Shown in pieces: positions 18,470 to 32,980 of a stretch of 64,000 bases of DNA. The stretch comes from Flavobacteriaceae bacterium LSUCC0859 (GTDB taxonomy: Bacteria > Bacteroidota > Bacteroidia > Flavobacteriales > Flavobacteriaceae). Below the pieces are notes generated by a model. The model was not told the origin of the DNA and made no database searches. It saw only the letters and a list, made by a program, of their open reading frames with translations. The DNA lies in assembly GCA_022239325.1 (NCBI GenBank), contig JAKOGP010000001.1, positions 552,659 through 616,658 of the forward strand, read 5' to 3'. Numbering within the stretch: position 1 is the stretch's first letter; each line of letters opens with the position of its first letter. Position numbers and translations under genes: made by a program.

Positions 18470-19426
18470 CTACGAGTGCCTAATGGTGTTTGGTAGTTGG
18501 CTTTCTTTTTTAGGGGATTTAAAATCTTTGCGTTGCTTGCCGTAACTGTTATGAGTCATGGATAATTCCGGTAAAACAACCAAGGGACTGCTGCTTATTC
18601 TGAGTAGCTTTTTAGCAATAGCTTCCTTGGAAAGCCCCTCTATAAAGGAGTGGTGATAGTTTAAAAAAGCCATGAGATGTATGCCGTTTTCTTCTATGAA
18701 TGTACCCAAACTCCGAGCGATATTATGAATACCTAGTATCCTGTGCTCCTCAAAAGACAGCTCTGCCAGGTAATTGTGTAACATTCGAATATTAAATTGC
18801 TGTGCCGCTGAGGGTAATTTAGAATCGTCTTTCACCTGAACAATTTGAATACTGGCTTTAAAGTCTTTGGCCAAACCAATGAGTGGGGCTAATTCTGCGG
18901 CAGCGAAAAACCTGCTAAAATCAGTCGCAAATGCAAAGGATGTGGGCCGCTCAAAGACCACCTTCTCTGGAACCGCAAGAATGGGTATTTGTACCCCAGC
19001 TTTTATGAGTTTTAGTGTTTGGGATCCCATGAAAACCGAGGCTAAACCACTATGCCCTTTACTGCCCATAACAAGAAGGTCATATTTTTTCTCACTCACA
19101 GCCTCTATGGTCGCAGGTACTATTAAATTAAATGAATGCGCTGCACTAAAGCTGTGAGAGACGGAAGCACCCTTAGATTTCGCACATGAAAGTTGTGCGC
19201 TAAGCCCCTTTTTTGCAGCCACCAAGGCCAGGTCTTCCAAAGCGTCTGAGGCTATACTCGATGCCATAAAACGGCTTTGAATAATAGCAGGTGTATAGAG
19301 GTGTAGCAGGTGAAAATGGGTAGGAACCTCTTTAAATATGAACTGAGCATATTCCAAGGCTTTGTATGCCGATGGAGAAAAATCAGTTAAAACTAATATG
19401 CTTTTTTTTGAGATAGATGCTGTCAT
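18470..19426 (-). CDS. Tandem universal stress protein
   Basis: A 318-residue protein with two UspA domains. The first runs from SILVLTDFSPSAYKALEYA to MGSKGHSGLASVFMGSQTLKLI, with the ATP-binding G-x2-G-x9-G-S/T type sequence; the second (from FAFATDFSRFFAAAELAP) lacks that loop. A polar tail follows. Tandem USPs in Bacteroidota are often linked to low oxygen or stress. The gene follows the Crp/Fnr regulator by about 60 bp on the same strand, and a Fnr-type site with a matching -7 element lies right before it, so it is likely induced by oxygen limitation. Confidence 0.9.
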   Translation of the reverse strand: MTASISKKSILVLTDFSPSAYKALEYAQFIFKEVPTHFHLLHLYTPAIIQSRFMASSIASDALEDLALVAAKKGLSAQLSCAKSKGASVSHSFSAAHSFNLIVPATIEAVSEKKYDLLVMGSKGHSGLASVFMGSQTLKLIKAGVQIPILAVPEKVVFERPTSFAFATDFSRFFAAAELAPLIGLAKDFKASIQIVQVKDDSKLPSAAQQFNIRMLHNYLAELSFEEHRILGIHNIARSLGTFIEENGIHLMAFLNYHHSFIEGLSKEAIAKKLLRISSSPLVVLPELSMTHNSYGKQRKDFKSPKKESQLPNTIRHS

Positions 19427-19445
19427 TTGCTGCAGTATGAAAAGA

Positions 19446-19488
19446 CAAAACTAGCAGCGAGCAGGACCCAAAACAATGACAAATATCA
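19446..19488 (-). promoter_or_regulatory. Fnr-type operator and promoter of the usp gene
   Basis: The dyad TGACAAATATCA (19477-19488 on the plus strand) lies with its centre 29.5 bp upstream of a perfect -7 element TAGTTTTG (minus strand, 19446-19453). The start codon follows about 20 bp later. The operator overlaps the stop codon of the fnr gene. The same 12-mer occurs before ccoS at identical spacing. Confidence 0.75.
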
Positions 19489-20169
19489 GTTTTGTGTAAG
19501 CTGCTCCATTTTTTTTTCATCTGCCACCCCAATTTTCTTCCCAGAACTGTAAATGAGCCCTTGCTTTTTAAACTCTGAAATCATTCGAATAGCAGACTCT
19601 GTAGCCGTCCCAACAATATCTGCCAGGTCTTCTCTAGAAAGGGTAATGCTGAGAAAACCATCTGAGTCTGTTCCAAAGGTCTGGTGCAAATACAAAAAAG
19701 TAGCAGCCAGCCTCTGTTTTACGGTCTTCTGAGACATATTCACAATAACCTCGTCTGCAGCCTTTAAATCATGAGCCATATGGCGGAGCACCTCTACAGC
19801 AAAATCCGGGTTGTTCTGTAAAGTTTTAGCAATATGGTCTTTTGAAATAAAACAAACTTCCATGTCTGCTACAGCTTTTGCCGTGAGATTGGCCTGCTCT
19901 TCAGCAACCAGAGATCTCTGCCCCAAAAGCTCTCCTTTACTAGCCATCTTAACAATCTGGTTTTTTCCATTGGCACTGAGCTTGGAGAGTAAAGAAACTC
20001 CATCTTTCACACAATACACTCCATGGAGTTGGTCTCCCTCTGAGAAAAGGATCTCTCCTTTTTTAATTTGCTTAATTTGCTTGGAATCTGAAACCGATTT
20101 AAGTTCCTCTTTGCTCATCGCTCTGAGGGAATTAAACTGGCGTACAATACAATTTTCACAACGGCTCAT
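19486..20169 (-). CDS. Crp/Fnr family transcription regulator
   Basis: A regulator with an N-terminal cAMP-binding-type beta roll (GEILFSEGDQLHGVYCV) and a C-terminal Crp helix-turn-helix (LSREDLADIVGTATESAIRM). I take the ATG at 20169, giving 227 residues starting MSRCENCIVRQFNSL; an ATG two codons earlier is equally possible, while the longer open frame to 20247 adds a hydrophobic leader that runs into the ccoI promoter. The N-terminal CENC motif and later cysteines could hold an Fe-S cluster as in Fnr, but the usual four-cysteine pattern is not clear. It lies back to back with ccoI, and its presumed sites precede ccoI, ccoS, hemN and usp. Confidence 0.88.
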   Translation of the reverse strand: MSRCENCIVRQFNSLRAMSKEELKSVSDSKQIKQIKKGEILFSEGDQLHGVYCVKDGVSLLSKLSANGKNQIVKMASKGELLGQRSLVAEEQANLTAKAVADMEVCFISKDHIAKTLQNNPDFAVEVLRHMAHDLKAADEVIVNMSQKTVKQRLAATFLYLHQTFGTDSDGFLSITLSREDLADIVGTATESAIRMISEFKKQGLIYSSGKKIGVADEKKMEQLTQN

Positions 20170-20250
20170 GCCCATAACTTTTGTGATATAAAAATACAAA
20201 ATCCAGTGGCATGCTGTTAGATTTTGTAAATAAATCCAGAAAAACAAAAC

Positions 20251-20293
20251 TGATAATTGTCATAGAAAGTAAGAGTCTTGCTGTTTTTCTTTG
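20251..20293 (+). promoter_or_regulatory. Fnr-type operator between fnr and ccoI
   Basis: TGATAATTGTCA at 20251-20262 (TGACAATTATCA on the other strand) matches the dyad before ccoS, hemN and usp. At the shared 29.5-bp spacing the plus strand has TTTCTTTG (20286-20293), an imperfect -7 element whose second base is T. A start from it would give an almost leaderless ccoI message, so the operator is more secure than the -7 call. Confidence 0.55.
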
Positions 20294-20297
20294 TGAT

Positions 20298-22730
20298 ATG
20301 CAAAAATCTGCCTCCAAAAAAGCGCCTACAAAAACCAACACATGCTTTCACTGTGCAGACCCCTGTGGGGATCAAAAAATTAACTATGACAACAAATACT
20401 TTTGCTGCCAAGGATGCAAAACCGTCTACCAGCTTTTTGTTCAGAATGAGATGGAGACTTTTTATGAACTTCAAAGCAATCCAGGCCATACTCCAAAGGA
20501 AGTGGGTGGGAAGTACGACTATTTACGTACTGAGTCTATTGCTCAAAAGCTCCTGAGTTTTTCCAGTGACACCCATGCCATTGTATCTCTCTACATTCCA
20601 GCCATTCATTGCAGCTCCTGTATCTGGCTCTTAGAAAACCTGAGCAAACTCCAAAAAGGCGTGCTTCAGTCTGAGGTGAACTTTCCAAAGAAAACGGTTC
20701 AAATTCAGTATTATCCAAAGGAGACCAATCTATATGAGTTGGTCATGTTGCTCAGCCACATAGGTTATGAACCTTATATTAGCTTAGATAAAGACCCACA
20801 AAAAAAGCCACCCAAAGACCGAAGCCTAATCTATAAACTCGGTTTGGCCGGCTTTGCCTTTGGCAATATTATGTTTCTCTCTTTTCCTGAGTATTTTGAA
20901 ACTTCAGAATTTTGGTTGGACCAATACAAAGGGTTGTTTAGAGGCCTCACTTTATTGTTTTCACTCCCGGTGGTGGGCTATGCAGCTACCGATTATTTAA
21001 AGAGTGCCTACAAGGGGCTCAGGGCCAAACATCTAAACATAGACCTGCCTATTTCATTAGGGATTATTGCTCTTTTTACACGTTCTGTAACAGACATACT
21101 CATGGGCTGGGGACCTGGGTTTTTAGACAGCCTCTCTGGCCTAATTTTCTTCTTATTGTTAGGGAAATTTTTTCAGCAAAAAACCTATCAGCACCTCTCT
21201 TTTGAGAGAGACTACACCGCCTACTTTCCCATGGCGGCTACCCAAATAGACTCCAATGGAAAAGAGCAACACAAACCCATTCACCAAATAGAAGAAGGAG
21301 ACACCTTACTCATTAGACATCAGGAAGTTATTCCTGTAGACGGTGTTGTAAGCCAGGGGCATGCCGCAATAGATTACAGCTATGTAAGTGGAGAGTCTAC
21401 CCCCTATTCCAAGGAGGTGGGAGACGCTGTATTTGCAGGAGGCAAACAAATGGCAGCCGCCATAGAAATTACAGCCACCAAAACCGTCTCTCAAAGCTAT
21501 CTGACACAATTGTGGAGCCATGCCGCCTTTAGCGGTAAAGACAAATTACCCTTTCAACACTTTACAGATCGCATATCCAAACGCTTTACCATAGCCATAT
21601 TAAGTATTGCTGTAGCCGCTGGGATGGTCTGGCTGTTTCTTGAGCCAGCGCAATCCCTGCATGTCTTTACAGCGGTACTCATTGTAGCCTGTCCCTGTGC
21701 CTTGGCCTTGGCAGCCCCGTTTACCCTAGGAAATATGCTGCGAATTTACGGACGGCAAGGGCTATACCTAAAAGACATTCATGTCATAGAAAAAATAGCT
21801 GGGATAAACAGCTTTGTCTTTGACAAAACAGGCACCCTTAGCAGTACCCAAAAAAGCCACATAGAATACCATGGGGCTCCACTTCATGGTAGAGAATTAG
21901 CCCTGCTTAAAAACAGCTTTAGAAATGCCAACCACCCACTGAGCAGGACGCTGTACGATTACTTGCCAGAGGCGGCCATTCAACTGCCTATTGAATTTCA
22001 CGAGATACTTGCTCAGGGGATAGAGTGTCATTTTGCCCAACATAGCGTTAAGGCAGGGGCAGCGTCTTTTACAGGCGCTACTGGGGTCCGTTTAAAAACA
22101 GCTACCCGAGTACATATAGCCATAAACAACAAATACAAAGGATTTTATGAGTTTAAAACCCCATATAGAGTGGGTATTAGATCCCTCATTTCCAGATTGA
22201 AAAACAAGCAAATCTATGTTTTTTCTGGAGACCAAGACACCGAAAAACAAGCACTTATAGCAATGGGTTTCCAAGCAGACCACTTGTTTTTTAACCAAAA
22301 ACCAGAGGATAAACTACGGCAAATAGAACATCTCCAAAACAAGGCACGCAGGGTGATGATGGTGGGCGATGGACTCAATGACGCCGGAGCACTAGCCAAA
22401 AGCGACGTCGGTTTGGCCCTGTCAGAAGATATTGCCGTATTTACTCCAGCCTGTGATGGTATTTTAGAAGCAGGGCAATTGCTTCATTTAGACCAATTTC
22501 AAGCATCGGCCCAAAGGGCCATGAAAATTATACAATACAGTCTAATTGGCTCTCTTTGTTACAACCTCATAGGCATTGGTTTTGCTGTGAGTGGCCACCT
22601 AGAACCCGTAGTAGCAGCTATTCTCATGCCGCTCAGCGCCATTAGCATAGTGGGGTATACCACCTTGGCTACCCATAGGATAGGTAAAAAACTCCAAGCC
22701 CTTAAAAGTCAATCACCACTCCAAAACTAG
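20298..22730 (+). CDS. ccoI: Copper-exporting P1B-type ATPase for cbb3 oxidase assembly
   Basis: From the ATG at 20298 the product has 810 residues; the open frame goes 29 codons further up, but that extension runs through the operator region. The N-terminal treble-clef-like domain has CFHC and CCxGC cysteines (16-40), followed by an HMA domain with CSSC (105-108), membrane helices, the CPC motif in IVACPCALALAAPF, phosphorylation site DKTGTLSS, and hinge GDGLNDAGAL. It is the CcoI/FixI type that supplies copper to the CuB centre. The two-domain N terminus is characteristic. The 3' end overlaps the convergent TonB receptor gene by 29 bp. Confidence 0.93.
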   Translation: MQKSASKKAPTKTNTCFHCADPCGDQKINYDNKYFCCQGCKTVYQLFVQNEMETFYELQSNPGHTPKEVGGKYDYLRTESIAQKLLSFSSDTHAIVSLYIPAIHCSSCIWLLENLSKLQKGVLQSEVNFPKKTVQIQYYPKETNLYELVMLLSHIGYEPYISLDKDPQKKPPKDRSLIYKLGLAGFAFGNIMFLSFPEYFETSEFWLDQYKGLFRGLTLLFSLPVVGYAATDYLKSAYKGLRAKHLNIDLPISLGIIALFTRSVTDILMGWGPGFLDSLSGLIFFLLLGKFFQQKTYQHLSFERDYTAYFPMAATQIDSNGKEQHKPIHQIEEGDTLLIRHQEVIPVDGVVSQGHAAIDYSYVSGESTPYSKEVGDAVFAGGKQMAAAIEITATKTVSQSYLTQLWSHAAFSGKDKLPFQHFTDRISKRFTIAILSIAVAAGMVWLFLEPAQSLHVFTAVLIVACPCALALAAPFTLGNMLRIYGRQGLYLKDIHVIEKIAGINSFVFDKTGTLSSTQKSHIEYHGAPLHGRELALLKNSFRNANHPLSRTLYDYLPEAAIQLPIEFHEILAQGIECHFAQHSVKAGAASFTGATGVRLKTATRVHIAINNKYKGFYEFKTPYRVGIRSLISRLKNKQIYVFSGDQDTEKQALIAMGFQADHLFFNQKPEDKLRQIEHLQNKARRVMMVGDGLNDAGALAKSDVGLALSEDIAVFTPACDGILEAGQLLHLDQFQASAQRAMKIIQYSLIGSLCYNLIGIGFAVSGHLEPVVAAILMPLSAISIVGYTTLATHRIGKKLQALKSQSPLQN

Positions 22731-25194
22731 GAATGGCTGCACCAGCGCTTTGCTCAATTTCTATGAGACTTCTCGGGCTAAGCGGCATGCCGTTGGCGTC
22801 CCGGGAAAGTCCGTATGTAGGCGGCTGTGGATTGCTAGAGCCTAGGGCATTTTGTACTTCTACGAAAAAATTAAAAGACCATTTTTCATAATACCATTTC
22901 TTGTCAAATCTAAAGTCTAACTGGCTAAAAGGCGCCAGTTTTTCACTACCCAGCGCATTGTAATCCAATATAATCTCAGGGTAAAAAGCCGTAGTTTGGG
23001 CTACATCTGTAGGCACATATGGCGTGGCAGCAGCATAGCGAAAACGGCTACTCACCTCCCAATTTTTTGGCAATTTATAGCCTGTGGTAAAAGACGCCAG
23101 ATGCCTACTATCCCATACAGAAGGCCTAAACACCTCTGGATCTAAGCCACTAAAAGTAGAATAGAAATAAGTGTAGGAGAAAATTCCAAAGAATTTCTGG
23201 GTGAGTTTTTGTTGCCAGAGTAGCTCCAGCCCATAGGCTTTTCCTTTTCCAACAGAGGCAATGGCCTCGTTGCCAAGTACCTCAAATCCCGCACCTTTAT
23301 TGGCTATGGAAACGCCGTCTGCCACAGAAACTGGATAGTCTGAATAGTATTTATAAAATCCCTCTAGGGACAATCTAGCAGCTGGGTTTAGTATTTTTTC
23401 TACCCCCAACACCAAATGAGAAGAACGGGTGTAATCCAGATTTTGGTTTACCAATTCCTGTGTTTGGTCTCTGTATCCCAACATGGTGTAAGGTGGTATT
23501 TTATAGTATATTCCAGCGGTACCGTTGAGCTTCCAACTAGGTGCTAACGCATAGGAGGCAGAGAGTCTGGGAGAGAGTGTTTTTAGCAGGGAACTCCCTT
23601 TAGTAAAGCTGTCTGCGTCTGCGCGCAGGCCAAGAGATACAGACAAACGGTCTTCAAAAAAATCTCTGGAGCCCTGACCAAAAAACCCATAATTATAAAA
23701 ATCTAAGTCCGTGTTGTAGGTATATGCTGGGCGGCTACTGAGGGTGGTGTTTTCATAAAGGGCACGCTGCAAATGTAATCCATAGCTCCATTTCCATTCC
23801 CCTTCAAAGCTGGTTACTGTGGCCCTGAGTTTGGTTTCAGACTCCAGGGCGTCATTTTGAAACCTGAGATCTTCTTGGGTGTCGTTGTCATTATACTGGC
23901 TAAAGGTATTCCACAAACTGTTGTTACTCAGACTAAGCTCCATAAATCCAGAACGCTCCTTAAATCTCCTCTTCCAAGTAGCTCCAATGGTATTGGTGTT
24001 TTGAAAGATCACAGGCACCTGGTCAAAGGTAGCAATCTGTTCTGGGGTATAGTCTGCTGTGGGAGGGATAACCGTAAACTTATCTATACTCCCCAGACCT
24101 ATAAATGAAAGGCTATTGTAGGCGTCTATCTTGTGATTTAATTTGTATTGATAGTCCCAGTAATCTGGTCTAAACGGCAGTCCAATGAGCTCAAACAAAA
24201 ACTGCAAATAGGAGCGGCGTACAGAGAGCAGAAGGTCTGTTTTAGGTGCAGCTCCTGCTGCCTTGTCTGCTTTTCCTCTAGCTTTACTGCGCAAAGGGGT
24301 GTCTATGGTTACGGCCGCCTCTGAAGCACTCAATCTAAAATTAGCTGCAAATCCGTTGGGGTTGGCATCTCTTTGGCTAAACTGTAGCACTCCCGAGAGC
24401 GGGTTGTTGTATTGGGCCCCAAAGGCCGATGCTGAAAGTCTAACGTCTGAAATGAAGGATACATTAAGCATACCTACCGGACCTCCAGAACTCCCCTGGG
24501 TACTAAAATGGTTAATATTAGGTATTTCTATGCCATCTAAGTAATACACCACCTCATTAGAAGCGCCTCCTCTAATAATAAGGTCATTTCTAAAACCTCC
24601 AATGGAGGGAGATACACCCGGAAGGGTCTGTGCCACCTGAACCACGTCATTGTTTGCACCTGGATAAGAGGCTATTTCTACCGCAGAAAGAGACTGGGTA
24701 GAAAGCGGTGTTTCTTTGGGGCGGTTTATAGGACTCAGAGCCACTACTGCCTCCTCTAAACTTTCTGAGGCTTCTTCTAATATAAAATTCAAAGGAGGGG
24801 TTCCAACAGGTTTAATTTGAAAATTAAAAACTGTTTGGGTTTTAAACCCCAAATAACTGGCCTGAACGGTATAGGAACCAGGGGGGATATTTTCTATGAG
24901 GTATCGGCCATTTTCGTTAGAAATGGCCCCAAAAGAAGTACCTTCTAACACCACGGTAGCTCCGAAGAGTGGGTTTTGGGCGGGATCTAGAATTTGGCCA
25001 GAAAGCGAAGCTGTGGCCCTAGGAGTACTGCTCTTTTCTAAAACCAAGGCAGCGGCCGGAGAGGGAACCCTTGGTCCAGTAGATGTTTGAGTGCTTAGGG
25101 CTTGACCGTTTTGGGTCTGTAAATTGTTGTTTTGAGCCCAACTAAAAATGGGCCATAGGGCCCACAACAGCCCCATCCATATGGTTTTTTTCAT
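22702..25194 (-). CDS. TonB-dependent outer membrane receptor
   Basis: An 830-residue receptor. A signal peptide (MKKTIWMGLLWALWPIFSWA) is followed by a polar linker, a CarboxypepD_reg-like domain (about 63-145, from SGQILDPAQNPLFGATV), a plug domain with GGFRNDLIIRGGASNEVVYY, and a 22-strand barrel ending in the aromatic-terminated SFGVVIDF. There is no SusD partner. It lies between ccoI and ccoS on the opposite strand, so a role in metal (copper or iron/haem) uptake for the oxidase is attractive but unproven. Its 3' end overlaps ccoI by 29 bp; the 85-bp gap to ccoS holds promoters for both. Confidence 0.9.
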   Translation of the reverse strand: MKKTIWMGLLWALWPIFSWAQNNNLQTQNGQALSTQTSTGPRVPSPAAALVLEKSSTPRATASLSGQILDPAQNPLFGATVVLEGTSFGAISNENGRYLIENIPPGSYTVQASYLGFKTQTVFNFQIKPVGTPPLNFILEEASESLEEAVVALSPINRPKETPLSTQSLSAVEIASYPGANNDVVQVAQTLPGVSPSIGGFRNDLIIRGGASNEVVYYLDGIEIPNINHFSTQGSSGGPVGMLNVSFISDVRLSASAFGAQYNNPLSGVLQFSQRDANPNGFAANFRLSASEAAVTIDTPLRSKARGKADKAAGAAPKTDLLLSVRRSYLQFLFELIGLPFRPDYWDYQYKLNHKIDAYNSLSFIGLGSIDKFTVIPPTADYTPEQIATFDQVPVIFQNTNTIGATWKRRFKERSGFMELSLSNNSLWNTFSQYNDNDTQEDLRFQNDALESETKLRATVTSFEGEWKWSYGLHLQRALYENTTLSSRPAYTYNTDLDFYNYGFFGQGSRDFFEDRLSVSLGLRADADSFTKGSSLLKTLSPRLSASYALAPSWKLNGTAGIYYKIPPYTMLGYRDQTQELVNQNLDYTRSSHLVLGVEKILNPAARLSLEGFYKYYSDYPVSVADGVSIANKGAGFEVLGNEAIASVGKGKAYGLELLWQQKLTQKFFGIFSYTYFYSTFSGLDPEVFRPSVWDSRHLASFTTGYKLPKNWEVSSRFRYAAATPYVPTDVAQTTAFYPEIILDYNALGSEKLAPFSQLDFRFDKKWYYEKWSFNFFVEVQNALGSSNPQPPTYGLSRDANGMPLSPRSLIEIEQSAGAAIPSFGVVIDF

Positions 25195-25220
25195 AGCGAT
25201 TCAAAATTAAGAATAAAAGC

Positions 25221-25263
25221 TGACAAATATCATTTTTTAAGCCCCTCTAAGCGTCTAGTTTTA
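25221..25263 (+). promoter_or_regulatory. Fnr-type operator and promoter of the cco operon
   Basis: TGACAAATATCA at 25221-25232, centre 29.5 bp upstream of TAGTTTTA (25256-25263), a one-mismatch -7 element. The expected start is near 25270, ten bases before the ccoS ATG, and places the operator at about -43, the usual class II position for Fnr activation. Confidence 0.75.
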
Positions 25264-25279
25264 CCAAAAATTAACCAAA

Positions 25280-25489
25280 ATGGGTGTTATTTACTTACTT
25301 CTGACTATAAGTGTGGTGGTGGCTCTTGGCTTTTTTGCTGCGTTTATTGGAGCGGTACGCCAGGGCCAGTTTGACGACCCCTATACCCCAGGAGTTCGCA
25401 TGCTTTTTGAGGACGAGCTGGTAAAGCCAAACCAAGACCAAAAAGAAAATCTGGACAAAAATATCACTAAAAACAAACTCCATTCCTAA
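25280..25489 (+). CDS. ccoS: cbb3-type cytochrome oxidase assembly protein CcoS
   Basis: A 69-residue protein with one membrane helix (residues 3-27), followed by the family motif GAVRQGQFDDPYTPGVRMLF, in which the FDD/P run is conserved. CcoS is needed for insertion of haem and copper in cbb3 oxidase. It is the first gene of the plus-strand cco operon, with the Fnr-type site directly upstream and ccoNO 4 bp downstream. Confidence 0.92.
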   Translation: MGVIYLLLTISVVVALGFFAAFIGAVRQGQFDDPYTPGVRMLFEDELVKPNQDQKENLDKNITKNKLHS

Positions 25490-25493
25490 TCCT

Positions 25494-27668
25494 ATGGCGC
25501 AACTAGAGCAGTTTTACTACGACAATAAAATTGTCAAAAAATTTATTCAGGCTACCATTTTTTGGGGCCTTATTGGTACCCTAGTGGGACTTACCCTGGC
25601 CTTTATGTTTTTATTTCCCAATATGACAGACGGGATTTCCTGGCTCAGTTTTGGCAGGCTCAGACCACTGCATACCAATGCCGTTATTTTTGCCTTTGTG
25701 GGTAACGCTATTTTTGCAGGGGTATATTACTCCACCCAAAGGCTGTTAAAGGCCAGAATGTTTAGTGATTTTCTGAGCCAGTTTAACTTTTGGGGGTGGC
25801 AGGCCATTATTTTGGCAGCAGCCATCACCCTTCCTCTAGGCTATACCACCTCTAAGGAATATGCAGAATTAGAGTGGCCTATAGACCTGGCCATTGCGGT
25901 GGTTTGGGTGGCTTTTGGATGGAACCTGATTGGTACCATGCTCCGAAGAAGGCAGCGCCACTTGTATGTAGCTATTTGGTTTTACCTGGCCACCTTTGTG
26001 ACAGTGGCTGTGCTCCATATTTTTAATAGTTTATCCATACCTGTAGGCGCTTTAAAAAGCTATCCGGTATATGCGGGTGTTCAGGACGCTCTGGTACAAT
26101 GGTGGTACGGACACAATGCCGTAGCTTTTTTCTTAACTACGCCCTTTTTAGGTCTCATGTATTACTTTGTGCCTAAAGCTGCAGGAAGACCAGTATACTC
26201 TTACCGCCTTTCTATTGTGCATTTCTGGTCTCTGATTTTTATCTATATCTGGGCTGGACCCCACCACCTATTGTATTCTGCCTTGCCAGATTGGGCGCAA
26301 AACCTTGGGGTAGCCTTTTCCATCATGCTCATTGCCCCCTCATGGGGTGGGATGATTAATGGCCTACTCACCCTGAGGGGTGCCTGGGATAGAGTGAGAA
26401 CAGACGCCACACTAAAATTTATGGTGGTGGCTATTACAGGTTACGGGATGGCCACCTTTGAGGGGCCTATGCTGTCTTTGAAAAATGTAAATGCTATTGC
26501 CCACTTTTCAGACTGGATTATAGCGCACGTTCACGTGGGTGCCCTGGCTTGGAATGGGTTCCTCACCTTTGGAATGATCTACTATTTAGTGCCAAAACTA
26601 TTCAAAACAGATTTGTACTCAAAGGGGTTGGCCAATGCCCACTTTTGGGTAGGAACACTAGGAATTGTGCTCTATGCATTGCCTATGTATGTAGCTGGAT
26701 TTACCCAGGCACTCATGTGGAAAGACTTTAATCCAGACGGCACCTTAGTCTATGGAAACTTTTTGGAAACCGTTCACGAGATTATCCCCATGTACTGGAT
26801 GCGAGCCATTGGAGGCACCCTATACATTATTGGGATGTTCGTTATGTTGTACAACCTAGTAAAAACTGTAAAGTCGGGCTCAAAAGTAGTAGATAGTTTG
26901 GCAGAGGCTCCTGCTATGGTCTCTGTTTCTAGTAAAAGAACCTTGGGGGAGACCTTTCACAGTTGGTTGGAGAGAAAACCCATTCAACTCACCATACTGG
27001 CTACTATAGCCATTCTCATTGGGGGGATTATTCAGATTGTTCCCACCATCTTGGTAAAATCTAATATTCCAACCATTAGCAGTGTAAAACCATACACGCC
27101 TTTGGAACTTGTAGGAAGAGATCTTTACATTAGAGAGGGCTGTGTGGGTTGTCACTCTCAGATGGTAAGACCTTTTAGATCTGAGGTAGAGCGCTATGGA
27201 CCATATGCCAAAGCCGGAGAATTTGTATATGACCATCCTTTTTTATGGGGTTCTAAAAGAACCGGCCCAGACTTGTTAAGAGTGGGTGGGAAATATTCAG
27301 ACAACTGGCATTTTAATCATATGTATGACCCGCAAACTACCTCTTCTGGCTCTATCATGCCAGGGTATAAATGGATGATTACAAACAAGGACAACCGCTC
27401 AGATATTCAGACTAAAATGAGAGCCATGGCTAGCTTAGGAGTGCCCTATACCCAAGAAGATATAGACCAAGCCTTTGAGCAAATGGAGGCTCAAGCCACC
27501 CAGATAGAACAAAATTTGTATTCAGATCCAGATTTTGTGAGTTCCTATGAGGCAGATAAGGCTGCAGCAACCGCAGCTGGAGAAACATTTATCCCTATGA
27601 AGGACCGAGAAATAGTAGCGCTAATTGCTTACTTACAAAGACTGGGAACAGACATAAAAATTAAATAA
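25494..27668 (+). CDS. ccoNO: cbb3-type cytochrome c oxidase subunits I and II, fused CcoNO
   Basis: A 724-residue fusion. Residues 1 to about 470 form the haem-copper oxidase subunit I with many membrane helices and the histidine-rich helices (PLHTNAVIFAFVGNAIFAG, WWYGHNAVAFFLTTPFL, WIIAHVHVGALAWNG) that bind haems b and b3 and CuB. A linker and one membrane anchor (about 500-520) lead into the CcoO part, whose single haem c motif CVGCH begins at residue 550, followed by HSQMVRPFRSE. The fused form is characteristic of Bacteroidota. It reduces oxygen at high affinity and pumps protons. Confidence 0.95.
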   Translation: MAQLEQFYYDNKIVKKFIQATIFWGLIGTLVGLTLAFMFLFPNMTDGISWLSFGRLRPLHTNAVIFAFVGNAIFAGVYYSTQRLLKARMFSDFLSQFNFWGWQAIILAAAITLPLGYTTSKEYAELEWPIDLAIAVVWVAFGWNLIGTMLRRRQRHLYVAIWFYLATFVTVAVLHIFNSLSIPVGALKSYPVYAGVQDALVQWWYGHNAVAFFLTTPFLGLMYYFVPKAAGRPVYSYRLSIVHFWSLIFIYIWAGPHHLLYSALPDWAQNLGVAFSIMLIAPSWGGMINGLLTLRGAWDRVRTDATLKFMVVAITGYGMATFEGPMLSLKNVNAIAHFSDWIIAHVHVGALAWNGFLTFGMIYYLVPKLFKTDLYSKGLANAHFWVGTLGIVLYALPMYVAGFTQALMWKDFNPDGTLVYGNFLETVHEIIPMYWMRAIGGTLYIIGMFVMLYNLVKTVKSGSKVVDSLAEAPAMVSVSSKRTLGETFHSWLERKPIQLTILATIAILIGGIIQIVPTILVKSNIPTISSVKPYTPLELVGRDLYIREGCVGCHSQMVRPFRSEVERYGPYAKAGEFVYDHPFLWGSKRTGPDLLRVGGKYSDNWHFNHMYDPQTTSSGSIMPGYKWMITNKDNRSDIQTKMRAMASLGVPYTQEDIDQAFEQMEAQATQIEQNLYSDPDFVSSYEADKAAATAAGETFIPMKDREIVALIAYLQRLGTDIKIK

Positions 27669-27674
27669 TAAGCC

Positions 27675-27899
27675 ATGCTAAAATTTGCTAAAAATTATAT
27701 GGAAACCATAGAAGGGGTAGCCACCTACCCGATGATTTCACTAGCCATTTTCTTTTTGTTTTTTGTGGTTTTATTTGCCTGGGTGTTTACCGCCTCTAAA
27801 GGCTATATTGCTCAAATGAGTGCCATTCCACTTGAAGAAGAGAGCAGCCTAGAAAACACCATTGATAACCCTTTAAAAAGCACGAATCATGAAAAATAA
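27675..27899 (+). CDS. ccoQ: CcoQ-like small subunit of cbb3 oxidase
   Basis: A 74-residue protein with one membrane helix (about 19-40, MISLAIFFLFFVVLFAWVFT) and an acidic cytoplasmic tail. Its position between ccoNO and ccoP and its layout match CcoQ/FixQ, although primary sequence in this family is weakly conserved. It starts 6 bp after ccoNO and its 3' end overlaps ccoP by 11 bp. Confidence 0.75.
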   Translation: MLKFAKNYMETIEGVATYPMISLAIFFLFFVVLFAWVFTASKGYIAQMSAIPLEEESSLENTIDNPLKSTNHEK

Positions 27900-28797
27900 A
27901 TTCCCCTGGTACTTTAGAATCCCCCTCTTATTTTTTGGAATTTGGGGGCTCATGGAGTTTTTCATAGACGGTGGAGACCAACCTGCCTTTATCGCTTATC
28001 CCATTACACAAGCCTTCTTGCTTTTTATTTTGCTACTACTTATTAGTATAGAGCTTATCATAAGTGCCATTGAAAATGTCATGTTCCAAACGCTTTCTGC
28101 AGAGGCCCAGCAGCGGTACCTAAGTGCAGAAACCAAACCAATGATATCTTTTAAATGGCTCAGAAGCCTATATCTGAAGCTTTTAGGTCACGACCAAAAG
28201 CGCCCTGAGGAGGCCATTGAATTGGACCACAATTACGACGGCATTCGCGAACTAGACAACAATTTACCGCCCTGGTGGGTTTATATGTTCTATGCTACTA
28301 TGCTATTTGGGGTGGTCTATTTAGTTCGTTTTCACCTAATTCATGACTACGATCAAACCCAAGAATTTGAACAAGAATTGGCCCAGGCACAAATAGATAT
28401 TGAAAACTATAAAAAGACTGCAAAAAACCTGGTAGATGTGAATACGGTGAGCTTACTAACAGACGCCTCAGATCTAAAAGCAGGTAAAACCATTTTTGAA
28501 AATAATTGTGTGGCCTGTCATATGGCAGACGGTGGGGGCGGAATAGGCCCCAACCTCACAGACACACACTGGATTTTAGGGGGGGGTATAAAGAAAGTAT
28601 TTGAAACTATCTCTGAAGGAGGTAGAGACGGAAAGGGCATGATTGCCTGGAAGCAAAGCCTTAAGCCTTTAGAAATGGCGCAGGTGGCCAGCTATGTCAT
28701 TGGCATGCAGGGACAAACTCCTGCCAATCCAAAAGCTGCAGAAGGAGATATACTATGGCCAGAAGAGCTTCCAAGCCTTGAAAAAGCAAAGGAATAA
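27889..28797 (+). CDS. ccoP: cbb3-type oxidase subunit III (cytochrome c), CcoP
   Basis: A 302-residue membrane-anchored cytochrome. Two N-terminal helices (about 10-60) are followed by NLPPWWVYMFYATMLFGVVY, the anchor typical of CcoP, then a periplasmic cytochrome c domain with a single haem motif C207-x2-C210-H211 (NNCVACHMADG) and axial methionine probably in GKGMIAW. Proteobacterial CcoP has two haem motifs; here only one is present. It delivers electrons to CcoNO. Overlaps ccoQ by 11 bp. Confidence 0.92.
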   Translation: MKNKFPWYFRIPLLFFGIWGLMEFFIDGGDQPAFIAYPITQAFLLFILLLLISIELIISAIENVMFQTLSAEAQQRYLSAETKPMISFKWLRSLYLKLLGHDQKRPEEAIELDHNYDGIRELDNNLPPWWVYMFYATMLFGVVYLVRFHLIHDYDQTQEFEQELAQAQIDIENYKKTAKNLVDVNTVSLLTDASDLKAGKTIFENNCVACHMADGGGGIGPNLTDTHWILGGGIKKVFETISEGGRDGKGMIAWKQSLKPLEMAQVASYVIGMQGQTPANPKAAEGDILWPEELPSLEKAKE

Positions 28798-28861
28798 GCA
28801 TTCACATCTGTAGCAAACCAAAAGCTTTTTAAACACAGCAGCAGCAAGACAGACCCCTCAA

Positions 28862-30271
28862 ATGGAAGAACAGTTTAGAGACAGCATAGGAACTATTAAT
28901 GAAGCAGGAAAAAGGGCTTGGGTCTATCCCAAAAAGCCTGTGGGTAGGTTCTACAATTATAGGAAATGGGTCAGTTACGGACTCCTTATTTTCTTGGTGA
29001 GTGCTCCTTTTGTGAAAATAAACGGACATCCCTTTTTAATGTTTAATGTGCTAGATCGCAGATTTAGCATTTTTAGCATTCCCTTTTGGCCACAAGATTT
29101 TCATCTCTTTGTAATAACCATGATTATAGGAGTCATTTTCATAGCACTATTCACGGTAGCTTTTGGGCGAATCTTTTGCGGTTGGATGTGCCCTCAGACT
29201 ATTTTTCTAGAAATGGTTTTTAGAAGAATTGAATATTGGATTGAGGGAGATCGTGGGGCTCAAATACGTCTGGATAGACAGGCCTGGAATGCAGAAAAAA
29301 TCAGAAAAAAAACCTTGAAATGGGTTGTTTTTGCACTCATTTCTTTTCTGATTGCCAATGTGTTTTTAGCCTATCTCATAAGTAGCGACACGCTTATCCA
29401 ATATATTATAGAAGGTCCTGCCAAACACCTTAACACCCTGGTGGCCTTAATCATTTTTACTGGGGTGTTCTACTTTGTATTTGCATGGTTTAGAGAACAA
29501 GTATGTATTATTGCCTGCCCTTACGGAAGGCTCCAAGGGGTCTTATTGGATAACAAATCTGTAGTTGTAGCCTATGATCACAAAAGAGGAGAGGACATTG
29601 AAGGTAGAAAAAAGTTTAGAAAAGGAGAAAACCGAAGCCAATTGGGCTTTGGAGACTGTATAGATTGTAACCAATGTGTTCAGGTCTGCCCCACTGGCAT
29701 AGACATCAGAAATGGTACCCAATTAGAGTGTGTTAATTGTACCGCCTGCATAGACGCCTGTGACAGCATTATGGATAGTGTAGCCCTACCCAAAGGGCTT
29801 ATAAGGTATACCTCACAAGATCATATAGAAAAGAAATCTCCCTTTGTATTTTCTACGAGACTCAAGGGATATACCGCTGTGCTCTTTATTTTGATAGGGG
29901 TGCTGGTAGGCATGCTTTTCTTAAGAAATCCGGTAGAGGCCACCATTCTCAGGTTGCCTGGACAGCTATTCGAACATAAAGAAGGGGGAATTATTTCCAA
30001 TGTATATACTTATAAATTAGTCAATAAAACGGACCAGACCATGGATTCCATCCATTTTGAACTCAAAAACAAAAAGGGACTCATTCGATTGGTTCCCGAT
30101 GGTTTTGTGACCTTAAAAGCAAACCATATGGGAGAAGGAACCCTATTCATAGAACTCCCGGAAACCCATTTGAGCGGAGATAAAAATAAACTTGAGATAC
30201 TCATCTACCAGGGCAACACCTTAATAGAAACTACCAGCGCTTCTTTTTTAGGCCCTAGAAGCTTTAGATAA
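28862..30271 (+). CDS. ccoG: cbb3 oxidase accessory protein CcoG (RdxA/FixG)
   Basis: A 469-residue polyferredoxin. It contains membrane helices, CGWMCPQTIFLEMVFRRIEY, CIIACPYGRLQG, and two 4Fe-4S motifs: GDCIDCNQCVQVCPTGIDI and LECVNCTACIDACDSIM. The C-terminal immunoglobulin-like domain (about 360-469) completes the family layout. CcoG is a copper(II) reductase that helps load CuB of cbb3 oxidase. It begins 64 bp after ccoP in the same operon. Confidence 0.95.
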   Translation: MEEQFRDSIGTINEAGKRAWVYPKKPVGRFYNYRKWVSYGLLIFLVSAPFVKINGHPFLMFNVLDRRFSIFSIPFWPQDFHLFVITMIIGVIFIALFTVAFGRIFCGWMCPQTIFLEMVFRRIEYWIEGDRGAQIRLDRQAWNAEKIRKKTLKWVVFALISFLIANVFLAYLISSDTLIQYIIEGPAKHLNTLVALIIFTGVFYFVFAWFREQVCIIACPYGRLQGVLLDNKSVVVAYDHKRGEDIEGRKKFRKGENRSQLGFGDCIDCNQCVQVCPTGIDIRNGTQLECVNCTACIDACDSIMDSVALPKGLIRYTSQDHIEKKSPFVFSTRLKGYTAVLFILIGVLVGMLFLRNPVEATILRLPGQLFEHKEGGIISNVYTYKLVNKTDQTMDSIHFELKNKKGLIRLVPDGFVTLKANHMGEGTLFIELPETHLSGDKNKLEILIYQGNTLIETTSASFLGPRSFR

Positions 30272-30334
30272 TGCGCCATAACACACATGGAGTACCATGA
30301 AACACAACTCATAAATCCATAAAAAAACACCAAC

Positions 30335-30811
30335 ATGACTCCTATAAAAATTTCTTGGGGAAGCGCTGTAGTAATTGCCTTTGTAGCCTTTATTAGCTTT
30401 ATCCTATACTTTGTTGTTCAAATGACGGTAAATTCTAGATCTAATCACGACCTAGTGAGCCCGGATTACTACCAGAAAGAACTTCATTTTCAAGAAGACA
30501 TGGCTGCCCAGCAGCGAGCAAAGGCCCTAGAAACACCGCTTATCATAAGCGCTAATTGGGAGGGTATTATTTTGGAATTTCCTCCTCAAATGAGCACTCT
30601 GACTCCCGGAATTAGGGGGAAGCTGTTCCTGTCTAAGCCAGACAATAAAAATTTAGACCAAGAATTAAGCCTCCAACTTCAAGGCAGTCAAATGCGCATT
30701 CCCGCTTCCCAATTGGTAGAAGGTCGTTGGAATTTGGTTGTAGATTGGGAATTTCAAGGCCTAACTTACAGAATAGAACAAGGCATAAACTTAAATCTAG
30801 CGCCCCTTTAA
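30335..30811 (+). CDS. ccoH: FixH/CcoH family protein
   Basis: A 158-residue protein with one N-terminal membrane helix (about 9-31, AVVIAFVAFISFILYFVVQM) followed by SPDYYQKELHFQEDMAAQ, the conserved YYxxxxxYQ-type motif of FixH, and a beta-rich periplasmic domain. FixH/CcoH assists assembly and stability of cbb3 oxidase. It lies 63 bp after ccoG and 12 bp before the SafE gene. Confidence 0.9.
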   Translation: MTPIKISWGSAVVIAFVAFISFILYFVVQMTVNSRSNHDLVSPDYYQKELHFQEDMAAQQRAKALETPLIISANWEGIILEFPPQMSTLTPGIRGKLFLSKPDNKNLDQELSLQLQGSQMRIPASQLVEGRWNLVVDWEFQGLTYRIEQGINLNLAPL

Positions 30812-30823
30812 AACTCCATCCCT

Positions 30824-31561
30824 ATGCTCTATACTGCCTTCATATTGGGTCTTTTGGGTAGCTTTCACTGTTTAGGCATGTGTGGCCCTATTGCTTTTAT
30901 GCTTCCCATTGGCACAGCAAAAGGTGTAAAAAAAGTAATTCTAATTAGCTTGTACCATACAGGTAGAATTGGAGCCTACGCAATTTTAGGAGCAATTTTT
31001 GGGACTTTGGGAAAAGGGATGGCTCTATTTGGAATGCAGCAAAAAATATCTATCGCAATTGGCATACTCATGCTAGCTGCTGTTCTTTTCCCCATCCTTT
31101 GGTCTGCCTACACCCCCTGGGGAAATATCATTAGCAAAACCTACCACCGATGGATCTTTAAAGTGCAAAGTAGTTTGGGCAAAGCACTGCGAAAAGAAGA
31201 TAGGGATCATTTTATTACCATAGGGTTTCTCAATGGTTTTTTACCCTGTGGCCTAGTGAGTATGGCTCTTTTAGGGGCTGTAGCCAGCGGCAGTAGCCAA
31301 GCCTACCAGGGTGCACTATATATGGTATTTTTTGGGCTAGGTACGGTTCCTATGATGTCTGCAGCTATTTACGCCAGCCAATTCTTAAAAGAAGTACAAT
31401 TACAAAGAATTAAAAAACTCATCCCTATTTTTATAGGAATTATCGGGCTGTTGTTTATTCTAAGAGGGATGGGTTTAGGCATTCCCTATTTGTCTCCAAA
31501 AACAAATCTCATGGCGGGAAATAGCAGTATAGAATGTCATGACCCAAGTTTGGGAGACTAA
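30824..31561 (+). CDS. TauE/SafE-like cytochrome oxidase biogenesis transporter
   Basis: A 245-residue membrane protein of the 'sulfite exporter TauE/SafE' type that regularly follows fixH in cbb3 operons. It has HCLGMCGPIAFML near the N terminus and NGFLPCGLVSMALLGA in the middle, two C-rich helices reminiscent of DsbD, and six helices overall. A role in copper or thiol handling during oxidase assembly is inferred from this context; the name sulfite exporter comes from distant relatives. It is the last gene of the operon and converges with hemN, 4 bp away. Confidence 0.85.
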   Translation: MLYTAFILGLLGSFHCLGMCGPIAFMLPIGTAKGVKKVILISLYHTGRIGAYAILGAIFGTLGKGMALFGMQQKISIAIGILMLAAVLFPILWSAYTPWGNIISKTYHRWIFKVQSSLGKALRKEDRDHFITIGFLNGFLPCGLVSMALLGAVASGSSQAYQGALYMVFFGLGTVPMMSAAIYASQFLKEVQLQRIKKLIPIFIGIIGLLFILRGMGLGIPYLSPKTNLMAGNSSIECHDPSLGD

Positions 31562-31565
31562 GCCT

Positions 31566-32918
31566 TTAGATTGTCATAGAAAACAATGTCTTTTTAGGGG
31601 CTTTGGCCTGCAGTCTGGCGTCAAAAGCCATGCAGACATTCCTCACAAAAGGACGGCCTTTGTCTGTAATTTCTATGCGGTTGGAATGGACCCGCAAAAG
31701 GGCATCGGCCGCCATGGGCTCCAGGGCGGCTAAAATAGTAGGAAGCTCTTCAAAATCTTCGGTCCATTGCGTCTCAAAATGACACATTAGATCGCTAATA
31801 TGAGTACGCAAACGAAGGTCTTGATCCGTGAGAATATGGCCTCTGAATGCCGGCAAAATTCCCTGTTGTACCAGGTGGGTATATGCCTCTAAATTTTTCT
31901 CATTCTGAGCAAAGGCTCCCCAGCAATCACTAATGCTAGACATGCCTAGGCCAATTAGTACCCTGCTATGCTGGTGGGTATAGCCCATAAAATTCCTGTG
32001 AAGCGCTCCGCTTTTGCTGGCTATGGCCAAGGTGTCTGATGGCAGTGCAAAATGATCCATCCCAATTTCTATATAACCCGCAGCTAGTAGCTGTGTTTTT
32101 GCGGTTTCATATTGGGCTCTTTTTAGGCTGGGGCTGGGTAAATCTTCGTCTTGAAAACCGCGTTGTCCATTTCCTTTTATCCAAGGTACATGGGCATATG
32201 AATACAGAGAAATTCGCTGCGGGCTAATAGACAAGGTTTTTTGAATACTGTCTTCCATATGCGATACACTTTGCAGCGGAAGTCCGTAAATAAGGTCGTG
32301 GCTCACAGAGGTGTAGCCTATCTCCCATGCTTGGTCAGAGACCGCTTTTACCTGGTCAAATGACTGCATTCTGTGAATGGCCTTTTGTACCGTTTCATTG
32401 TAGTCCTGCACCCCAAAACTCACCCTTTTAAAACCATGGGCAAAAAAAAGTTCCAAATGTTCCCTTTGGGTATTGTTGGGATGGCCCTCAAAACTCCCAT
32501 CAAAATCTGGAGTTTTTTCTGCCCTTATAAACAAGCCCTGTAAGAGTCTGTCTAAACTTGACGGACTAAAAAAAGTAGGGGTTCCTCCCCCCAGGTGCAG
32601 TGCTGCAATACGAGGGCGTTCTCCTAATATCTCATGGTATAACTGCCACTCCTCTAATAGGGTTTGAATGTAAGGTAGCTCTAGTTCATGCCTTTTGGTA
32701 ATGCGTTTGTGACAGCCACAAAAGGTACATAAAGACTCACAGAAAGGAAGGTGTATATAAAGGCTTATACCCTCCTTGCTGTTGCTGTCTTTAAAACTTT
32801 GAGCCAGCTGTTCTTTCCATGCTTGTAATGAAAATTGGTCTGTATCCCAATAAGGAACAGTAGGGTAAGAAGTATATCGTGGGCCTGCCACATTGTATTT
32901 TTGAACCAAAGAGCACAT
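31566..32918 (-). CDS. hemN: Oxygen-independent coproporphyrinogen III oxidase
   Basis: A 450-residue radical SAM enzyme converting coproporphyrinogen III to protoporphyrinogen IX without oxygen. The N terminus YNVAGPRYTSYPTVPYW and HLPFCESLCTFCGCHKR with CxxxCxxCxC identify true HemN; the extra cysteine after the triad separates it from HemW. GGGTPTFFS is the SAM motif. Its 5' region has a perfect Fnr-type dyad with correctly placed -7 element, fitting haem supply during low-oxygen growth. Converges with the SafE gene. Confidence 0.95.
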   Translation of the reverse strand: MCSLVQKYNVAGPRYTSYPTVPYWDTDQFSLQAWKEQLAQSFKDSNSKEGISLYIHLPFCESLCTFCGCHKRITKRHELELPYIQTLLEEWQLYHEILGERPRIAALHLGGGTPTFFSPSSLDRLLQGLFIRAEKTPDFDGSFEGHPNNTQREHLELFFAHGFKRVSFGVQDYNETVQKAIHRMQSFDQVKAVSDQAWEIGYTSVSHDLIYGLPLQSVSHMEDSIQKTLSISPQRISLYSYAHVPWIKGNGQRGFQDEDLPSPSLKRAQYETAKTQLLAAGYIEIGMDHFALPSDTLAIASKSGALHRNFMGYTHQHSRVLIGLGMSSISDCWGAFAQNEKNLEAYTHLVQQGILPAFRGHILTDQDLRLRTHISDLMCHFETQWTEDFEELPTILAALEPMAADALLRVHSNRIEITDKGRPFVRNVCMAFDARLQAKAPKKTLFSMTI

Positions 32919-32935
32919 GATGGTATGTTTTTGCT

Positions 32936-32980
32936 CAAAAATAAGGAGGGCTATCCCTTCAAACTATGACAAAAGTCATA
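32936..32980 (-). promoter_or_regulatory. Fnr-type operator and promoter of hemN
   Basis: TATGACaaaaGTCATA (32965-32980) is a perfect 6-bp dyad. Its centre lies 29.5 bp upstream of a perfect -7 element TATTTTTG (minus strand, 32936-32943). The start codon follows 17 bp later. Confidence 0.8.

Follow-up and report, generated by a model that had tools for sequence, protein, structure and literature searches.

How are a cbb3 oxidase, its copper supply, haem synthesis and a stress protein brought under common control in a 64,000-nucleotide stretch of the Flavobacteriaceae bacterium LSUCC0859 genome (hereafter the window), and is the Crp/Fnr-family regulator encoded among them responsible? We assign a probability of about 0.8 to the reading that a dimer of this regulator, here termed Fnr, bound to four operators, activates usp, ccoI, ccoS and hemN from -41.5, probably at low oxygen. 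The protein, encoded between the usp and ccoI sites, would bind operators of the form [AC]TGAY-N4-RTCAT, their 12-bp cores lying 23 bp before the -7 octamers, and would do so with what is likely a four-cysteine iron-sulphur (Fe-S) cluster intact. To our knowledge the activator logic of the Bacteroidota is poorly mapped, and no paper defining a flavobacterial Fnr regulon came up in our searches of the open-licence PMC literature.

Operators at a fixed distance from the -7 box

A sequence-only reading of the window had proposed four dyads with constant spacing to a promoter, and both observations stand. The dyads lie at 19477-19488 (usp), 20251-20262 (ccoI), 25221-25232 (ccoS) and 32967-32978 (hemN), all are matched by TGACAAWWRTCA without a mismatch (the 20251 site on the minus strand), and the dyad end is followed by the octamer after 23 bp in all four. 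The consensus first offered for them had mixed the two strands; in gene direction [AC]TGAY-N4-RTCAT describes the operator better. Before usp, the operator CTGATATTTGTCAT (19476-19489, minus strand) overlaps the fnr stop codon and is followed by the -7 box TAGTTTTG (19446-19453, minus), and before hemN the corresponding pair is ATGACTTTTGTCAT (32966-32979, minus) and TATTTTTG (32936-32943, minus). On the plus strand, ccoS has CTGACAAATATCAT (25220-25233) and TAGTTTTA (25256-25263), and ccoI has CTGATAATTGTCAT (20250-20263) and the degenerate box TTTCTTTG (20286-20293). Compared with the Bacteroidota sigma-A box TAnnTTTG, the usp and hemN boxes are exact, that of ccoS has one change and that of ccoI is without the TA.

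An activator centred at -41.5 stands in the class II position, as known from the geometry of Escherichia coli promoters. Transcript starts of Flavobacterium psychrophilum are reported to place TAnnTTTG at -12 to -5 (PMC9723704), and with a gap of 23 this puts the dyad centre at -41.5; the class II geometry proposed earlier is therefore retained, and its centre is moved from about -43. The class II assignment is one of geometry only, namely the gap together with a box placement taken from F. psychrophilum. The same placement predicts transcript starts at 19441 (usp), 20298 (ccoI), 25268 (ccoS) and 32931 (hemN).

We searched the whole genome (2.17 Mb, 12 contigs) for the same arrangement. Exact TGACAAWWRTCA occurs at six places, four of which are the window sites (two for the reversed control), and the strict operator MTGAYWWWWRTCAT at seven (nine rows, against three for the control). 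Five of these seven carry TTTR at the fixed 23-bp position, four of the five being in the window; the binomial chance of this is 5.5e-8, or 6.4e-7 using the intergenic TTTR rate of the window, and both values err on the optimistic side, the same sites having supplied part of the operator letters. Loose dyads followed by TAnnTTTR number 11 (control 4), with the gap of 23 in four and any other gap in at most two.

The fifth tied operator, at C5:168098 (G000:C5:168068-168110, minus strand), has TATCTTTG at gap 23 and precedes a pyridine-nucleotide oxidoreductase of ferredoxin-reductase-like type and an open reading frame (ORF) that is ferredoxin-like by reading, a pair that might feed electrons to HemN. 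A sixth, at C7:231411 (plus strand), has a weaker tie, TATTTTAG at gap 23, and is followed by a 41-codon ORF, by reading a small membrane protein. Of the predicted promoters, five with a clear tie or six counting C7:231411, four lie no more than 13.5 kb from the regulator gene. Two further matches were set aside as chance: an exact TGACAAATATCA at C4:499714, inside a queG-like coding frame, and an extended operator at C7:129179, inside a TonB-receptor-like frame.

Recurrence of the arrangement in relatives

The looser searches in this genome tell against our reading. With up to two mismatches, TGACAAWWRTCA is found 45 times in the window against 45.2 expected, which is the chance level. Loose dyads with TTTR number 48 against 39 for the reversed control and their gap does not stand out, five lying at the predicted spacing and up to six at other gaps. 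Could the four dyads and their AT-rich octamers then be a coincidence, as the absence of a preferred gap among the loose dyads and the exact TGACAAATATCA within a coding frame might suggest? Given that the loose pattern shows no excess in this genome alone, we judged the spacing in relatives.

Across 60 genomes of the family, TGAYN4RTCA-N23-TAnnTTTG occurs at 463 sites, against nine for the reversed pattern. When the gap was left free from 13 to 33, it was 23 in 76, 24 in 17 and any other value in at most 10 among the 149 matches listed for 12 of the 60 genomes, one further genome with a single row being left out. This family-wide gap spectrum contradicts chance, as do the 463 sites and the conservation of the ccoI dyad described below, and we regard coincidence as having almost no probability. 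In a draw of 247 genomes from the phylum, 104 have at least one site: all 27 of the same family (mean 9.0; control 5 in total), all three of another family of the same order (mean 6.3), 27 of the 31 from other orders of the class (mean 3.1; control 7 in total) and 47 of the 186 from the rest of the phylum. What had been described as local to the window was right in substance and is confirmed; the window shows locally a promoter pattern that extends across the family.

In 80 loci (L007-L086) we found 97 gap-23 sites, 70 before an ORF of 61-65 amino acids and 27 before one of 206-215 amino acids, counts that are not independent as they represent two orthologous promoters seen repeatedly (a tally of 101 also takes in loci of the genome itself). 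ORFs of 60-66 amino acids were set at the ccoS position by distance alone; a BLAST comparison of downstream genes with the window proteins labelled none of the 97 sites, partly because the ccoS query frame was one base off. The second site, seen in Flavobacterium loci (L012, L014 and others), is on the minus strand at about 2 kb, before the 206-215-amino-acid ORF.

The bases flanking the core are also constrained. Among 41 sites of one relative (G032), the base before the core is A in 51%, C in 41% and T in 2%, and the base after it is T in 90%. At the same gap, the 60 family genomes hold 311 sites with [AC]..T flanks and 21 with T..A flanks (two control matches each), against an estimated ratio of roughly 2 to 1 from base composition alone. 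A different form, TTGAT[AT]TAGGTCAA, turns up repeatedly 23 bp ahead of TAnnTTTG in several genomes (G013, G014, G028, G033 and G049) and may represent a second kind of operator, used by a different Crp/Fnr paralog.

The ccoI promoter had been considered the weakest of the four on the ground that its mRNA would be almost leaderless. In 100 loci where ccoI lies divergently beside fnr, the window included, the dyad is present in 99, and ccoI counts as a conserved member of the set; the dyad is followed by T in 99/99 and preceded by A or C in 95/99. The gap to TTTG is 23 in 70 of these 99 loci and 24 in the other 29. The first letters of the -7 box are AA in 47, GA in 41, CA in eight, TA in two and TT in one, and TA is thus missing from 97/99. 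Given that this box is almost never TA in relatives, the ccoI promoter would be the one that depends most on the activator. The near-leaderless arrangement does exist and is peculiar to this genome: the distance from box to first in-frame ATG is 18-27 in 86/99 loci and 4, the shortest, in the window, where the predicted start is the A of the ATG and the ccoI mRNA is predicted to be leaderless. Leaderless mRNAs are reported to make up 5.5% of those examined in F. psychrophilum (PMC9723704). At the other flank of the regulator gene, the usp site with TAnnTTT at gap 23 is present in 8/8 loci where usp follows fnr, the window among them.

Who reads the operator

The number of sites varies with the Crp/Fnr complement of a genome. 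The six of the 60 family genomes in which no Crp/Fnr match was found (E up to 1e-3) have 0-1 sites each, and the 37 that encode an Fnr ortholog have between 2 and 26, 9.4 on average. The earlier proposal that the neighbouring Crp/Fnr protein is the likely regulator holds up in relatives. The same scarcity bears on whether the dyad could instead be a promoter element for an alternative sigma factor, which would equally be expected to keep a set distance from the -7 box. The dyad is, however, a palindrome with a Crp/Fnr core, it is scarce where Crp/Fnr proteins are missing and it is not among the six sigma motifs as described in PMC9723704, and we hold such an element to be very improbable.

On the other side of the balance, 17 of the 60 genomes encode only more distant Crp/Fnr proteins and still have 1-16 sites (mean 6.5), so an Fnr of the window type is not the sole possible reader. 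Six distant paralogs, moreover, are response-regulator/Crp fusions (Response_reg, cNMP_binding and HTH_Crp_2) with an E..IR recognition helix, ATE..IR in five and ASETLIR in one. These fusions come from five genomes (two from G056, one each from G027, G007, G042 and G001) and cover 4 of the 17 distant-only genomes; among their loci (L193-L198), a histidine-kinase-like frame overlaps the fusion gene in L194. Given both the sites in distant-only genomes and the E..IR helices of the fusions, the operator code is probably shared within the family. A stronger version, in which the principal reader is some other Crp/Fnr protein, for instance a kinase-driven fusion, and Fnr is only one reader or not the main one, draws on the same two observations. 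In the window's genome, by contrast, the two HTH_Crp_2 proteins found are Fnr and one of 211 amino acids whose helix, by reading TSRVVISR, is different; a third, weak Crp/Fnr match is confined to the cyclic-nucleotide portion of a long frame. The E..IR helix was seen there in no candidate other than Fnr, and we consider a different main reader improbable.

With Fnr as the preferred reader, the targets in relatives bear on the proposed signal. For G032, with 42 sites, 41 were retrieved, 38 had a downstream ORF of at least 60 amino acids and 28 of the 38 were scanned against Pfam; the target was taken as the longest ORF within 400 bp, so some may be wrong. Those recognised by Pfam include two POR ferredoxin-oxidoreductase-type proteins, a molybdopterin oxidoreductase, a Mo-cofactor oxidoreductase, two cytochromes c, Rrf2, Usp, a flavin reductase and a rhodanese, and those recognised by reading are ccoNO, hemN, further usp genes and a PPDK-like protein. 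For others (PPK2, DeoC, MlaE, TonB, glyoxalase and FadL types) a connection with low oxygen is not evident, and 8 of the 28 scanned have no Pfam family; both points count against our reading. The target set of oxidase, copper, haem and stress genes suggested for the window itself is supported in relatives by the spacing and by the conservation of the ccoI and usp sites. In F. psychrophilum, oxygen limitation strongly raises the cbb3 oxidase and also raises haem enzymes (PMC9723704); fnr and crp are not mentioned in the main text of that study.

A site lies before fnr itself in G001 and G018, which suggests autoregulation there. In the window, TATTTTTA stands before fnr at 20189-20196 (minus strand); with it, the ccoI dyad would fall at -72.5 with respect to fnr, where it could serve class I autoregulation.

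The regulator and its neighbourhood

The fnr gene (19486-20175, minus strand) is taken to start at the ATG at 20175, with a second ATG downstream at 20169. Its product belongs to the Crp/Fnr superfamily, with cNMP_binding (PF00027) and HTH_Crp_2 (PF13545) above cut-off, supporting alignments and Crp/Fnr folds among the Foldseek hits. It has four cysteines (C5, C8, C54 and C107), of which a CX2C pair and a later cysteine align with the FNR chain at three of the four FNR ligand positions; we take the cluster cysteines of E. coli FNR to be C20, C23, C29 and C122. The third N-terminal FNR cysteine is Asn in the window protein, which counts against an FNR-type cluster, an extra cysteine stands where the FNR chain has Ala, and the FNR cysteine set is thus incomplete. 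All four cysteines are nonetheless invariant in 54/54 close homologs; a broader set of 117 rows shows them in 111 or 112, with the six fusion rows accounting for the misses. The four are all retained in a cco-linked Fnr from Bernardetia (Cytophagales); a nos-linked protein on a Tunicatimonas plasmid is without the first and a Bacteroides finegoldii protein is without both N-terminal ones. The structure model is Crp/Fnr-like with a weak N-terminus (blocks with a predicted local distance difference test score of 54 and 63), and owing to this low confidence it is unable to place a cluster.

These features admit a second possibility, that the regulator is right and its signal is nitric oxide or general redox, sensed through thiols without an Fe-S cluster. 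The missing third FNR cysteine, the score against the NCBIfam Fnr model PRK11161 (91.6 bits for a cut-off of 228) and the relative located in a nos cluster would all fit it, whereas the invariant cysteines equal the number that a [4Fe-4S] cluster needs, the Bernardetia relative retains them beside cco and the cbb3 and haem targets speak for oxygen. We judge a signal other than oxygen unlikely.

The recognition helix is TATESAIR in the window protein and LTVETISR in FNR, with E and R kept and Ser replaced by Ile; E192, I195 and R196 are invariant in 54/54 homologs, so that these read E..IR where FNR has E..SR. The FNR operator, which we take to be TTGAT-N4-ATCAA, shares the core and differs in the flanks, and since the Ser of the FNR helix presumably contacts the flanking base, the change to Ile may explain the altered flank. 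Compared with FNR of E. coli and Aliivibrio fischeri, a class II regulator, the window system has in common the Crp/Fnr fold, CX2C with a later cysteine, the helix E and R, a dyad centre at -41.5 and respiratory and haem targets. It differs in the replaced third cysteine, the cysteine gained, the Ile of the helix, the operator flanks and a -7 box of TAnnTTTG in place of a -10 of TATAAT. These data support a protein that would act like FNR as a class II activator and yet departs from it in cysteine set, helix, operator flanks and curated-model score.

Put beside the sigma-A promoters described for flavobacteria in PMC9723704, which have TAnnTTTG at -12 to -5 and cbb3 and haem genes raised at low oxygen, the predicted promoters would have the -7 box at the corresponding place and precede genes of these two kinds; unlike our account, the main text of that study names no Fnr or Crp. 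The protein shares family and phylum with the MalR-like Crp/Fnr proteins of Bacteroidota, near which a Flavobacteriales homolog has been placed (PMC8510549). For those, the text of that paper proposes carbon sensing, whereas the targets and cysteines here point to oxygen or redox.

We hold at roughly even odds a broader model in which the Bacteroidota would have an Fnr of their own: an oxygen switch with its cluster on a CX2C, YC and VC set, reading [AC]TGAY-N4-RTCAT by way of the Ser-to-Ile change from a fixed -41.5 on TAnnTTTG. Phosphorelay-driven Crp fusions would share its operators, two senses acting on one set, and the conserved TA-less ccoI box would make copper supply strictly activator-dependent. 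As the pattern has almost no background, candidate low-oxygen promoters can be listed from sequence in Flavobacteriaceae. It also opens three questions to direct test: does class II geometry hold at a sigma box of another type, could an Fnr-type cluster be built on other ligands, and for what reason does a single promoter, that of ccoI, retain a TA-less -7 box?

The genes themselves are assigned as follows. The universal stress protein gene usp (18470-19426, minus strand) matches Pfam Usp. The gene called ccoI (20298-22730, plus) encodes a heavy-metal P-type ATPase (Pfam E1-E2_ATPase, ATPase-cat_bd and HMA), a probable copper pump for the oxidase, and is named by position, NCBIfam Cu-ATPase models matching below cut-off. 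The cco run begins with ccoS (25280-25489, plus; Pfam FixS), continues with a ccoNO fusion, ccoP, ccoG and ccoH (25494-30811, plus; Pfam COX1 with FixO, FixP_N, FixG_C and FixH) and closes with a cytochrome c biogenesis/SafE-like membrane protein (30824-31561, plus; Pfam DsbD_2). The oxygen-independent coproporphyrinogen III oxidase gene hemN (31566-32918, minus) matches NCBIfam TIGR00538 above cut-off, at 406 bits. Between ccoI and ccoS, on the opposite strand, stands a TonB-dependent-receptor-like gene (22702-25194, minus).

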